NCBI GenBank assembly: GCA_937936705.1
Contig: CALHCP010000078.1
Coordinates: forward strand, 1 to 35,104
DNA length: 35,104 bases
Direction of reading: 5' to 3'
Source: an uncultured cyanobacterium
Lineage (GTDB): Bacteria > Cyanobacteriota > Cyanobacteriia > Gloeomargaritales > Gloeomargaritaceae
The notes under the pieces were generated by a model. That model had not been told where the DNA came from. It worked only from the letters and a program-made list of their open reading frames with translations, and made no database searches. Position 1 is the first letter of the stretch, and each line of letters opens with the position of its first letter. A program made the translations under genes and the position numbers. Of this stretch, positions 509-4,798 are shown piece by piece.

Positions 509-1297
509 ATGCAAATTCAGGGGCATTTAGCCGAGTTTTCTCTGGCCGAACTCTATTCACTTTTGCGGCAGGGAAAACAAACCGGTGTACTCGCATTAGC
601 CAACTATCAAATTGGGTTTTGGGAAGGTCAAATTGTGGGGGCATCCCTGCCGGAATGGGATTGGCGGCGAGCCGTTGTGACCCAGGGGTGGCTCCGACCA
701 GAAACCCTGGAACGCTTGAGCCATCTCTATCAGCGTCAAGAGATGAAACAACCCTTTGGCCGCTGGTTAGTGGAGCAGGGATTACTCCAACGCTCTCAAA
801 TCCGGTGGTTGTTCAGTCAGCAGGTATTGCGGCCGGTCTGTCGCTTGTTTGCCTTACCCGATGCTCCCTTTCAGTTGCGACCCCAAACCCAGTTGTCCCA
901 TTTGCTCCTGACGGGATTGCGGGCGGAGCCATTGGAAGTGATTTTGGCCGGTCTGCGGTTGTTGAAGGATTGGCAACATTTGCTGGATAAATTGCCTGAC
1001 CCCGACTCGGGATTAAAAAGTTGTGGCGGGCAGCCGGGCTATCACCTCAATCGCTGGGAATGGCGGCTGTGGGAGTACAGCAACGGCCAAATGAGTCTGG
1101 GGGAAATTGCCGAGAAATGGCAGGTTCCTGTCTTGGAAGTCCAAAAATTGGCCTTCCGTTTGTTGACGGTCGGTTTGGTGGTCGAACTTCCTTACATTCA
1201 CCTACAAAGAAAGCCGGAATTATCCGCTTCTCAAACTCCCGTCACGGAAGGTTTTTTGGATCAGCTATTAGGGTTTTTACAAGGAAGCTTGCCCTGA
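509..1297 (+). CDS. DUF4388 (PatA-N-type) domain protein, first paralogue
   Basis: A 262-residue soluble protein. Residues about 2-95 look like the DUF4388 domain found at the N-terminus of PatA-type regulators: it opens with a QGHLAEFSLAEL-type helix, then TGVLAL and a GQIVGA strand. Residues about 170-250 form a second conserved block with a winged-helix look (W-R-LWEY, then SLGEIAEKW and a LAFRLLTVGLV helix). The ATG at 509 follows AAGAGG (497-502). A closely similar paralogue lies at 2073-2855, and a GTPase gene lies between them, so the pair probably works with that GTPase. No enzymatic motif is visible. DUF4388 proteins are generally linked to signalling, often motility or cell pattern; the exact role here is inference. 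Confidence 0.8.
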   Translation: MQIQGHLAEFSLAELYSLLRQGKQTGVLALANYQIGFWEGQIVGASLPEWDWRRAVVTQGWLRPETLERLSHLYQRQEMKQPFGRWLVEQGLLQRSQIRWLFSQQVLRPVCRLFALPDAPFQLRPQTQLSHLLLTGLRAEPLEVILAGLRLLKDWQHLLDKLPDPDSGLKSCGGQPGYHLNRWEWRLWEYSNGQMSLGEIAEKWQVPVLEVQKLAFRLLTVGLVVELPYIHLQRKPELSASQTPVTEGFLDQLLGFLQGSLP

Positions 1298-1342
1298 TAT
1301 TAACTTTTGCGAAGCAATACTACCAAATCCTTCCATCCCTAT

Positions 1343-1362
1343 CCTTAAAGTCGGCTTTAAGG
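1343..1362 (+). terminator. Perfect 8-bp hairpin after the first DUF4388 gene
   Basis: CCTTAAAG (1343-1350) and CTTTAAGG (1355-1362) form a perfect stem with a TCGG tetraloop, 45 bases after the stop of the first DUF4388 gene. Only scattered T residues follow, so it may be a weak terminator or an attenuating or protective hairpin before the GTPase gene. Confidence 0.4.
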
Positions 1363-1515
1363 TACATGATTATTTGATTTTGTTGATGGATTTTCCTCAG
1401 AATCGGCATCTATCATGATGAATATACCATCGAAAAGGAGTAGGGAATTGCTAGGTATTCTTCACCATAAAAACGTTTTCTGCCGATATTTTGCTTGGCA
1501 AGGAGGACACCATTA

Positions 1516-2067
1516 ATGGCGATCATGCGAATTGTGGTCACGGGACCGGTGGGGTCAGGAAAGAGTACGTTTGTGCGTACGGTGAGTGAAATCCAGACCG
1601 TTGATACTGACCGACAGGCGACGGACGAAACGGCTCTATTGAAAGCAACCACAACGGTAGCCATGGATTTCGGGCGGGTTACCTTTGGCAACAAAATGAG
1701 TCTGCATGTGTACGGCACACCGGGGCAGGAGCGTTTTGATTTCATGTGGGAGATTCTGATCGAACATGCCCACGCCTACATTTTGTTGGTGCCGGGTCAC
1801 CAACCCGGCGCGTTTCGGACGGCGCGGCGGATTTTAACGTTTATGGAGCAACGGGTTCGCCTGCCCTACTTGGTGGGGGTGACCCATTTGGACGTTCCCC
1901 AGGCTTGGCCGTTGCCTTATGTGGGGATGGCGGTGGGGGTTCATCCCGATTTATTGCTGGCGGTCAATGCGACCCAAAAGCCTTCTGTGGTGTCGGCGTT
2001 AGTCCAGTTGATCCAGCGGTGTCATACCCGGCGAACTCAATCCCAATTATCTGCTCAGGAGGTGTAA
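1516..2067 (+). CDS. Small Ras-like GTPase of the CvnD/MglA type
   Basis: A 183-residue GTPase. The P-loop is GPVGSGKS at residues 10-17. The switch I block TTTVAMDFGR is at 45-54, the G3-like motif GTPGQERF at 67-74, and THLD at 123-126 takes the place of the canonical NKxD. TTVAxDFGR and FGTPGQ/YGTPGQ are typical of the GTPase (CvnD) of actinobacterial conservons and its bacterial relatives. I start at ATG 1516 because AGGAGG (1501-1506) sits 9 bases before it; the frame is open from a TTG at 1495. The stop overlaps the Shine-Dalgarno sequence of the next DUF4388 gene (5 bases apart), so the two are co-translated. The roadblock protein at 3053 is the expected type of partner. Confidence 0.85.
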   Translation: MAIMRIVVTGPVGSGKSTFVRTVSEIQTVDTDRQATDETALLKATTTVAMDFGRVTFGNKMSLHVYGTPGQERFDFMWEILIEHAHAYILLVPGHQPGAFRTARRILTFMEQRVRLPYLVGVTHLDVPQAWPLPYVGMAVGVHPDLLLAVNATQKPSVVSALVQLIQRCHTRRTQSQLSAQEV

Positions 2068-2072
2068 CAACA

Positions 2073-2855
2073 ATGCAGGGACGCTTATCAGAAATCCCTT
2101 TGGCCGAGGTACTGAAACTGTTAGGACAAGGGCAGGCGACGGGAGTGTTGGAATTGCAACCGATGCGTTACCAGTTGTGGTGGCAGGCGGGCAAGATGGT
2201 AGGGGCATTAGCGCCGGGCTTTAGCTTGCATCAATTGATGATGTCACAAGGGGGGGTGTCCGCATCGGTGTTACAAGTAGCGATGCGCGCCTATGTGGTG
2301 GCGGGCAGTAAGTCCCCGTTTGGGGTGTGGTTGGTGGAGCGTTATGGATGGCAGTGGCGGGAATTGCAGTGGCTATTCCACCAACAGGTGGTGCGTCCGG
2401 TCTGCCGGTTGTTGGGGGCGGCAGAGGCCCGGTTTGAGTTCCGTCCCCGGCAAGCGTTGCCTCTAGCCCACCTGACGGGTTTATCGGCGGAACCCCTGGA
2501 GGTACTCTTGGCGGGACTGCGGGCATTGCGAGACTGGCGGGTGTTGTTCGACCAGTTGCCGGAGCCGGCCTCAGCGCTGGTGAGTCGGTACCAAGGCCGC
2601 CCCCCTTACCGCCTGAATCATCAGGAATGGCATTTGTGGGAGTACGCTGACGGTGAAACGAGTTTGGCCAGCATTGCCCAAGCGTGGCAGGTGGAGGTGT
2701 TGACCGTCCAGCAGGTGGCTTTCCGGTTGATGAGCGTGGGTTTGGTGGCGGAACTGCCCCTTTTGGCAACGGCAAAGCAGCTAGGCGCGGCTTCCGCTTC
2801 CGAATTAACGGGGGATTTTTTGGAGTCACTGGCGCAATCTTTACAACAACTTTAA
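2073..2855 (+). CDS. DUF4388 (PatA-N-type) domain protein, second paralogue
   Basis: A 260-residue paralogue of the protein at 509-1297 with the same two-part layout. The N-terminal DUF4388 domain starts QGRLSEIPLAEVLKLL and has TGVLEL and GKMVGA. The C-terminal block contains LNHQEWHLWEYADG and a VAFRLMSVGLVAELP helix. The ATG at 2073 has AGGAGG (2058-2063) in front of it, and that site lies within the last codons of the GTPase gene. The reading frame stays open far upstream through the GTPase gene, but the internal ATG is clearly the start by homology with the first paralogue. A strong terminator follows at 2877-2927. Confidence 0.82.
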   Translation: MQGRLSEIPLAEVLKLLGQGQATGVLELQPMRYQLWWQAGKMVGALAPGFSLHQLMMSQGGVSASVLQVAMRAYVVAGSKSPFGVWLVERYGWQWRELQWLFHQQVVRPVCRLLGAAEARFEFRPRQALPLAHLTGLSAEPLEVLLAGLRALRDWRVLFDQLPEPASALVSRYQGRPPYRLNHQEWHLWEYADGETSLASIAQAWQVEVLTVQQVAFRLMSVGLVAELPLLATAKQLGAASASELTGDFLESLAQSLQQL

Positions 2856-2876
2856 GGCAAGGATCACTTTGTTTTT

Positions 2877-2927
2877 TACCCCGATGATTCCCAGGATAAA
2901 AAATGGGAATCAGTGGGGTATTTTTTT
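2877..2927 (+). terminator. Strong rho-independent terminator
   Basis: TACCCC (2877-2882) and GATTCCC (2886-2892) pair with GGGAATC (2905-2911) and GGGGTA (2915-2920), separated by a 3x3 internal loop, and seven T residues follow (2921-2927). It separates the DUF4388-GTPase-DUF4388 transcript from the roadblock gene, which therefore probably has its own promoter in the AT-rich stretch 2928-3050. TATTAT near 2972 could be its -10, but I see no convincing -35. Confidence 0.85.
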
Positions 2928-3052
2928 GTAAAAATCTGCCATTTAATATCCAGAAAAAATCGAGATAAAGATATTATAAAACAATAGGCTTTACCCCGCT
3001 TTAATTAGCCATAATAAAGATGTTGGCGAGATTGATTTTGGAGACAGAAATT

Positions 3053-3454
3053 ATGTCTATTAATGTGGCGAAATTGACAGGGGCATTACAACAGTTTGTG
3101 GGTTCCGTTGCCAATGTGCAGGCAGCGGCGGTCGTCTCTCCGGATGGGTTGGCCTTGGCTTCTTGTCTGATGCCGGGGATGGATGAAGAGCGGGTGTCGG
3201 CGATGGCGGCGGCGTTGCTCTCTTTGAGTGAACGGATTGGCCGGGAACTGAATCGGGGTGCCATCGAGCGGGTTTGGGTGGAAGGCAGCCTAGGCTACGG
3301 CATTATTACCAATTGCACCGATGATGCGGTGTTGTTGGTGTTGGCGGATCGGCAGGCGAAGATGGGGGTGATTAACCTCGAAGTCAAAAATGTGGTGAGT
3401 TGTCTGCAAGAGTTTCTCACCAGTAGTGGCAATACCCTGGCGATGTCTTCCTAA
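3053..3454 (+). CDS. Roadblock/LC7 domain protein (MglB/CvnB-like)
   Basis: A 133-residue single-domain roadblock/LC7 protein. The body AAAVVSPDGLALASCLMPGMDEERVSAM is the usual first strand pair and helix, and VWVEGSLGYGIITNCTDDAVLLVLAD forms the later strands. Roadblock proteins such as MglB and CvnB act as homodimeric partners or GTPase-activating proteins for MglA/CvnD-type GTPases, and such a GTPase lies 1 kb upstream. I prefer ATG 3053 over ATG 3020 because GGAGAC (3040-3045) lies 7 bases before it and the resulting length fits the family. It is followed after 67 bases by the hemerythrin gene in the same direction. Confidence 0.85.
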   Translation: MSINVAKLTGALQQFVGSVANVQAAAVVSPDGLALASCLMPGMDEERVSAMAAALLSLSERIGRELNRGAIERVWVEGSLGYGIITNCTDDAVLLVLADRQAKMGVINLEVKNVVSCLQEFLTSSGNTLAMSS

Positions 3455-3521
3455 AGGCATGTTCCGGGACTCGATTCAGCAAGTTAATGATTCATCGCAG
3501 TATCGCTAGGAGAAGCAATTC

Positions 3522-3950
3522 ATGACCACCACCACGCTCGTTCGTTATGTATGGGATGACCGCATCAAAGTGGGTTTGCCTTTGATTGATAACCAACACC
3601 GGGAGTTAATCGAGGCGATCAACGATTTAGCCGAGGCCATTGAAGGCAATCAAGGTTCCACTGCCGTCAAAAAGCTGATTGCCTTTCTCAAGGGCTATGC
3701 GGAGTGGCATTTTGATCAGGAAGAAAATTGTGCCTTTCGTCATCAATGTCCTTTAGCCGAAACCAATCAGAAAGCGCACGTTCGCTTTTTGGAAATGCTC
3801 GCCCAATGGCATCGGGAATATACCGAAAGCGGTGCCAGCGAGGAGCAAGCCCGCAAAATCCATACTGCTTTGGGGGAGTGGTTGGTCGATCACATCTACA
3901 AAATCGATACCAACCTGGCTAAGGAAATTCAGGCTCAGCCATCGGCCTAA
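3522..3950 (+). CDS. Bacteriohemerythrin-like protein with one substituted iron ligand
   Basis: A 142-residue four-helix hemerythrin domain. Recognisable ligands are H26 (IDNQH), H63 and E67 (WHFDQEE), H86 (KAHVRF), and H124 and D129 (DHIYKID). By spacing, the position of the classical fifth histidine (15 residues after the Glu ligand and 4 before H86) is N82, so the diiron site is probably altered; H74 or the nearby CxxxxxC (C70, C76) might compensate. Hemerythrins bind O2 through a diiron centre and often serve in O2 sensing or delivery. AGGAG sits about 9 bases before the ATG. It lies in the same direction as the roadblock gene, so an O2- or redox-linked input to the GTPase module is possible but unproven. 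Confidence 0.85.
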   Translation: MTTTTLVRYVWDDRIKVGLPLIDNQHRELIEAINDLAEAIEGNQGSTAVKKLIAFLKGYAEWHFDQEENCAFRHQCPLAETNQKAHVRFLEMLAQWHREYTESGASEEQARKIHTALGEWLVDHIYKIDTNLAKEIQAQPSA

Positions 3951-4335: not shown

Positions 4336-4798
4336 ATGATGACCAAGTTGGCCAATCATTTATCTGCCATCGTTTACTCTCGTTTACTCTTTATTCTCGG
4401 CTTGCTTCATAGTTACTGACATTAAACCTCTACAGGCATTCACAACTGGCGACGGCTTCATCATGCCCAGTCGCAACATTGTCTGTTTTAGCTATGGACA
4501 ATCGCCCCAGCAATTTTTGCGTTGTGAAATTCGCAGCGGACTCAAACCGATGCCACTCAAACCAAGTTCTTGCCAATTTGACTGGGGTGGAGGTTTTTTA
4601 CTGACAAGTGATCGCCAAAAAGCCGAAATTCTCTGTATCAGCGATACGGTCTATTCACCGGATTTCGCAATTATTAATTATGGTAAGACTTGGCGTAAAA
4701 ATGGCTTTAGTTGTAACTCGACCACTAACGGTTTGACCTGCACCAATGGCAAAGGTAATGGCTTTTTTATGAACCGTGAACAGTGGAGAGCGTTTTAA
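4336..4798 (+). pseudogene. Small secreted protein of DUF6636 type, apparently frameshifted
   Basis: The reading frame ending at 4798 encodes the body of a small cysteine-containing protein: SRNIVCFSY, LRCEI, CQFDWGGGF, ILCISDT, INYGKTW, GFSCNS, GLTCTN, NREQW. This pattern matches the secreted DUF6636-like family as I know it. The first ATG in this frame (4463) lies just before the conserved NIVC motif, so it lacks an export signal. A different frame starting at ATG 4336 gives MMTKLANHLSAIVYS plus a hydrophobic stretch (LLFILGLL), a good signal peptide, but ends at TGA 4417. Removing one base between about 4395 and 4440 would join the two. It is therefore probably a frameshifted gene or a sequencing error. 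MITE-like repeats flank it on both sides. Confidence 0.6.

Follow-up and report, generated by a model that had tools for sequence, protein, structure and literature searches.

Gene content of the locus

The window, that is the whole stretch of 35,104 nucleotides analyzed here, derives from a Gloeomargarita-type contig (C78) of a 2.05 Mb genome that is 83% complete. Between positions 509 and 3950 it contains genes for a PATAN/DUF4388 protein, an MglA-like GTPase, a second PATAN protein, a roadblock protein (MglB) and a hemerythrin (Table 1). An initial annotation had delineated this five-gene locus correctly; all five genes lie on the plus strand and each family assignment is clear in Pfam and NCBIfam. 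DUF4388 corresponds to the PATAN domain. The two window copies, scoring 72.5 and 69.7 bits with PF14332 against a curated cut-off of 25, are members of this family and finish in a winged-helix-like region. Among named relatives, Gloeomargarita sp. SKYG116 was the nearest one found; its GTPase is 78% identical to that of the window, which is the sole copy found in the window's own genome. Downstream of the cluster, a DUF6636 protein is encoded at window positions 4463–4798 (Pfam).

Table 1 Features of the GTPase locus and the evidence for each
Feature	Position	Strand	Evidence
PATAN1: DUF4388/PATAN, winged-helix-like C-terminus, no REC domain	509..1297	+	PF14332 E 4.2e-20
MglA-like small GTPase	1516..2067	+	ATP_bind_1 7e-14, Roc 4e-6, Ras 9e-5; motifs; tree
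PATAN2: second PATAN protein	2073..2855	+	PF14332 E 2.9e-19; 47% identical to PATAN1
Probable intrinsic terminator: hairpin then U run, between PATAN2 and MglB	2877..2920	+	-25.5 kcal/mol, z -4.5 versus shuffled sequences
MglB/roadblock (Robl_LC7), putative GAP	3053..3454	+	PF03259 E 4.7e-17; DG pair
Bacteriohemerythrin variant, CPxAExNxxAH	3522..3950	+	PF01814 E 3e-14; NF033749 above cut-off; model

PATAN1 was modeled by AlphaFold with a pLDDT of 92, and three loci of related hot-spring Gloeomargarita encode an orthologue of it. Its paralogue PATAN2 starts 5 bp past the GTPase stop codon and sits on a long branch next to the PATAN1 clade. The relatives L001, L111, and L112 have no counterpart at the same position, PATAN2 matching only their upstream PATAN, and the gap between GTPase and MglB measures about 200 bp in L001 and L111 and is similarly short in L112. 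By these comparisons PATAN2 is found only in the window genome; the layout with two DUF4388 proteins described initially was likewise found in no other genome. The hairpin 3' of PATAN2 is strong, and MglB and hemerythrin are therefore probably expressed here from a transcript separate from that of MglA and PATAN2.

Classification of the GTPase

The GTPase displays the motifs GPVGSGKST (G1), TTT (G2), GTPGQ (G3), and THLD (G4), including the TTTVAMDFGR and GTPGQERF stretches quoted in the initial annotation. In a published survey of MglA proteins (PMC4316618), GTPGQ in G3 together with Thr in the G2 position defines Groups 2–5. The window protein reads YGTPGQERF in G3, with G67–Q71 invariant in our GTPase alignment (A2), and TTTVAMDFG in G2, where Thr replaces the intrinsic Arg finger and Thr46–Thr47 are likewise invariant. 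The Asp-Gly pair of the MglB proteins of these groups is found in the window MglB (SPDGLAL) and is more than 90% conserved (n = 116 sequences). These motifs place the window GTPase in MglA Groups 2–5 and not with the conservon protein CvnD. It is probably a member of Group 5, which the same survey reports from cyanobacteria; this label is set by motif and taxonomy only, because the GTPase tree holds no published reference sequences.

In the tree, the window GTPase clusters with those of other hot-spring Gloeomargarita and two Chlorobi sequences (support 95/89), within the cyanobacterial radiation. The nesting of Chlorobi GTPases among cyanobacteria suggests transfer between phyla. The same core plus hemerythrin occurs in two Chlorobi loci (L014 and L015, Thermochlorobacter and kin).

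The locus had also been likened to actinobacterial conservons (CvnA–D), with the DUF4388 proteins taking the place of the histidine kinase and DUF742 parts. A conservon-like relay would share with the window the G2 and G3 motifs and the clustering of GTPase and roadblock partner with a putative input protein. However, the G4 motif is THLD and not the NxFD of conservons, the GTPase is placed among cyanobacterial sequences, and a histidine kinase and DUF742, present in conservons, are absent from the five genes (the upstream view comprises 508 bp to the contig end). We consider such a relay highly improbable. The GTPase motifs fit MglA Groups 2–5 generally, and the suggested replacement finds no support either, PATAN being an already noted neighbor of MglA and MglB. 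Conservon (Group 2) membership was rejected on the G4 motif and gene content, with no CvnA or CvnC among the five genes.

Conservation of the MglA-MglB-PATAN core

Conservation was analyzed in 79 loci with a relative of the GTPase, 40 of which extend 5 kb or more to either side. Within 5 kb of the GTPase, these 40 well-flanked loci contain MglB in 39 cases, PATAN in 33, and both in 33. The grouping seen in the window is not a chance arrangement, since both partners accompany the GTPase in 33/40 loci, and the possibility that the cluster is absent from other genomes can be discarded. The MglA-MglB-PATAN core is found across phyla with shuffled gene order. The proposed pairing of GTPase and roadblock protein is supported, with MglB as a putative GAP-like regulator. 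A contig labeled Tatlockia (L013) has a cyanobacterial-type cluster and is possibly mis-binned.

PATAN has been linked to MglA and MglB in published work; what is new is the sensor-like genes beside the core. In the Group 5 survey (Wuichet & Sogaard-Andersen 2014, PMC4316618), the features shared with the window are GTPGQ in G3, Thr for the Group 1 Arg in G2, an MglB neighbor with the DG pair, cyanobacterial hosts, and PATAN as an occasional neighbor. Neighborhoods are called variable there, and the passages covered mention no globin, hemerythrin, or V4R-like partner.

A sensor globin accompanies the core

The conserved ORF just 5' of MglB in five hemerythrin-bearing loci is a Protoglobin-family sensor globin, and a profile built from it identified globins in many further loci. 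The GTPase is carried, at E 1e-20 or better, by 36 of 386 cyanobacterial genomes; protoglobin is present in 31 of these 36 and in 7 of the 350 others (Fisher p = 8e-34, counts ignoring phylogeny). Genus-level globin/GTPase counts are 20/4/5/113 (p = 4e-16). In 30 of the 31 genomes having both, the two genes lie less than 3 kb apart. The five carriers that lack the globin contain in their clusters either a hemerythrin (G000) or a V4R-like protein (G091, G296, G338, and G382). Chloroflexota, Rhodocyclaceae, and Thermus, together with a Gracilibacteria MAG, also carry the globin next to this core. In Thermus caliditerrae (L019), two globin-like genes flank MglB in the GTPase cluster.

The proximal heme His of the PF11563 sensor globins is retained in 47/47 cluster globins, all from relatives of the window locus. 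The nearest solved structures are Tlr1989, the globin 2w31, a globin-coupled histidine kinase, and HemAT; one cluster globin matches Tlr1989 of Thermosynechococcus itself, whose structure is solved (PDB 8h17). Genome-wide searches for protoglobin found none in G386–G388 (hot-spring Gloeomargarita, 96–99% complete), in SKYG116 or in two Chlorobi, all with hemerythrin in the cluster, nor in the 83% complete window genome. Globin and hemerythrin occur together in L006, L125, L126, L127, and L129, and Thermosynechococcus has both. In the part of the open-access literature that was covered, no paper connected sensor globins with MglA-MglB-PATAN clusters, which is weak evidence of novelty, and nothing relevant emerged on Tlr1989, on DUF4388 combined with roadblock, or on protoglobin combined with a GTPase.

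Besides globin and hemerythrin, a protein of ~155 residues recurs beside the MglA-MglB core (e.g., L130:8685-9176(-), L142:9208-9699, and L003:6945-7412). It displays two Gly-x3-Gly doublets, invariant in the alignment, and is probably V4R/Bet3-like, a weak identification: comparison with V4R yields an hhalign E-value of 0.0024 but a probability of 12%, PF02830 scores about 12 bits at three of these genes, and searches of Pfam and PDB gave no match to V4R. Bet3, a subunit of TRAPP, has been proposed to descend from V4R (PMC2253512).

Sorted by these neighbors, loci contain globin only (17), V4R-like protein only (13), hemerythrin only (9), globin and V4R-like protein (7), globin and hemerythrin (5), or none of the three (3, two of which are truncated or empty where the contig ends). 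At least one sensor-like gene lies within 5 kb in 47/48 cyanobacterial or Chlorobi loci, a count that is descriptive and carries no test because the classes were noticed while viewing the same loci. Stronger support comes from the globin tally in 386 genomes, though it takes no account of phylogeny. The locus is a real, conserved GTPase module whose sensor-like neighbor varies between lineages. A possible O2 or redox input, raised initially for the hemerythrin, gains more support than could have been known from the window, as a heme sensor globin is present in the clusters of most cyanobacterial relatives.

The cluster hemerythrin is a variant

The window hemerythrin keeps H26, H63, E67, H86, H124, and D129, whereas the seventh iron-ligand position is occupied by Asn82, as in every sequence of the hemerythrin alignment (A3), leaving it short of the seven ligands of an O2-binding hemerythrin. 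Its model (pLDDT 92.5) is closest to the chemoreceptor domain DcrH-Hr; all 16 cluster hemerythrins have Asn where DcrH-Hr has His, with an invariant Cys-Pro a few residues before. This invariant substitution at one iron ligand makes O2 binding by the hemerythrin uncertain. The same Asn and Cys-Pro are present in 12 further cyanobacterial hemerythrins (L147 and L152–L162), whose 1.5 kb flanks gave no PATAN, GTPase, or MglB match. Both the missing canonical ligand and these hemerythrins away from the core count against the sensor reading. Ligand variation is known in cyanobacterial hemerythrins generally (PMC4919030).

Read the other way, MglA, MglB, and PATAN could form a motility switch without gas sensing, next to which globin and hemerythrin would be co-localized scavengers of O2 or NO and not inputs. 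Globins and hemerythrins are often protective, and the altered iron ligand and the Asn-type hemerythrins found apart from the core fit such a role. The globin, however, belongs to a sensor class, its tight linkage to the GTPase core recurs in different phyla and gene orders, and a fusion of globin and roadblock domains is known (PMC4476040). We regard co-localized scavengers as rather unlikely, and gene context suggests coupling of the sensors to the GTPase. In the fusion protein, HGbRL of Methylacidiphilum, globin is likewise coupled to Roadblock/LC7 and a relay of the ligand signal was proposed, but HGbRL is a single fused protein of one genus, with a different globin class and an operon reported to contain a methyltransferase, not a GTPase (PMC4476040).

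PATAN proteins and a possible pilus output

In Synechocystis, PATAN regulators bind PilB1, as reported for PATAN-REC proteins (PMC9090330, PMC12288463), and the window's own genome encodes three PATAN-REC proteins as well as pilB, pilT, and pilC. This binding and the presence of these pil genes make the type IV pilus motor the most likely PATAN target. The phototaxis regulators PixE and PixG of Synechocystis, whose known partner is PilB1, have the PATAN domain in common with the window proteins, but carry REC where the latter have the winged-helix-like C-terminus; this difference from the PilB1-binding proteins counts against a role as pilus effectors. Pilus control is our favored but unproven output, and polarity or motility, as proposed in the initial annotation, would be the process affected. 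A c-di-GMP motif resembling MshEN in the helical insertion of PATAN found no support, as the NCBIfam match (E 0.01) is below cut-off, PDB profiles resemble MshE/PilF only at E 0.5–0.9, and MshE is not among the best 50 PATAN fold matches.

Alternatively, the winged-helix-like end could bind DNA, such that the GTPase state sets gene expression. HTH_47 matches both window PATANs (E 0.0004–0.001, below the curated cut-off), and winged-helix and LuxR-type structures are among the weak fold matches. Winged helices are also common in protein–protein roles, none of the fold matches is significant (best E 0.16), which speaks against a DNA-binding role, and the cyanobacterial PATAN proteins studied so far act on the pilus motor. 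Control of gene expression has been proposed for Group 3 MglA systems (PMC4316618). A transcriptional output appears quite unlikely to us, and pilus control remains the favored one.

A proposed GTPase switch with exchangeable sensors

We propose, with about an even chance of being right, that the cluster encodes a GTPase switch that a gas or redox sensor gates and that works through PATAN proteins, with type IV pili as the probable target. It would be a stand-alone signaling switch with the MglA-type GTPase as on/off element, regulated by the roadblock protein as a GAP-like partner, judging from its family. PATAN may serve as effector or adaptor that passes the GTPase state on, with the type IV pilus motor as the likeliest recipient. 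The input would come from the neighboring ligand-binding protein, namely the heme sensor globin in most relatives, the V4R-like protein in others, and the variant hemerythrin in hot-spring Gloeomargarita and Thermochlorobacter, whose ligand state (O2, NO, or redox) would, via MglB or PATAN, alter which nucleotide state the GTPase adopts. Gene content, conservation, the globin linkage, and the ligand substitution are observed here; physical coupling, the direction of the signal, the identity of the ligand, and the pilus output are inferred. The probably separate transcript of MglB and hemerythrin in the window counts against this reading. With somewhat less than even confidence, we extend this to a family of Ras-like GTPases with interchangeable gas, redox, or small-molecule sensors, in which hot-spring Gloeomargarita and Thermochlorobacter swap the heme globin for a non-heme iron protein.

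The polarity switch of Myxococcus and Thermus likewise combines a small GTPase and a roadblock partner in a motility context, but has the Group 1 catalytic motif (TVPGQ, Arg finger) and Frz/RomR as known inputs, not gas-binding proteins. To our knowledge, little is known outside Myxococcus about what feeds into bacterial Ras-like GTPases, and their repeated association with families of O2-binding proteins opens this question to direct testing in Thermosynechococcus. If true, the proposed switch would tie O2 or NO sensing to surface motility with no two-component phosphorelay in between. Thermosynechococcus is motile, and gene-disruption mutants have been published (PMC9090330).
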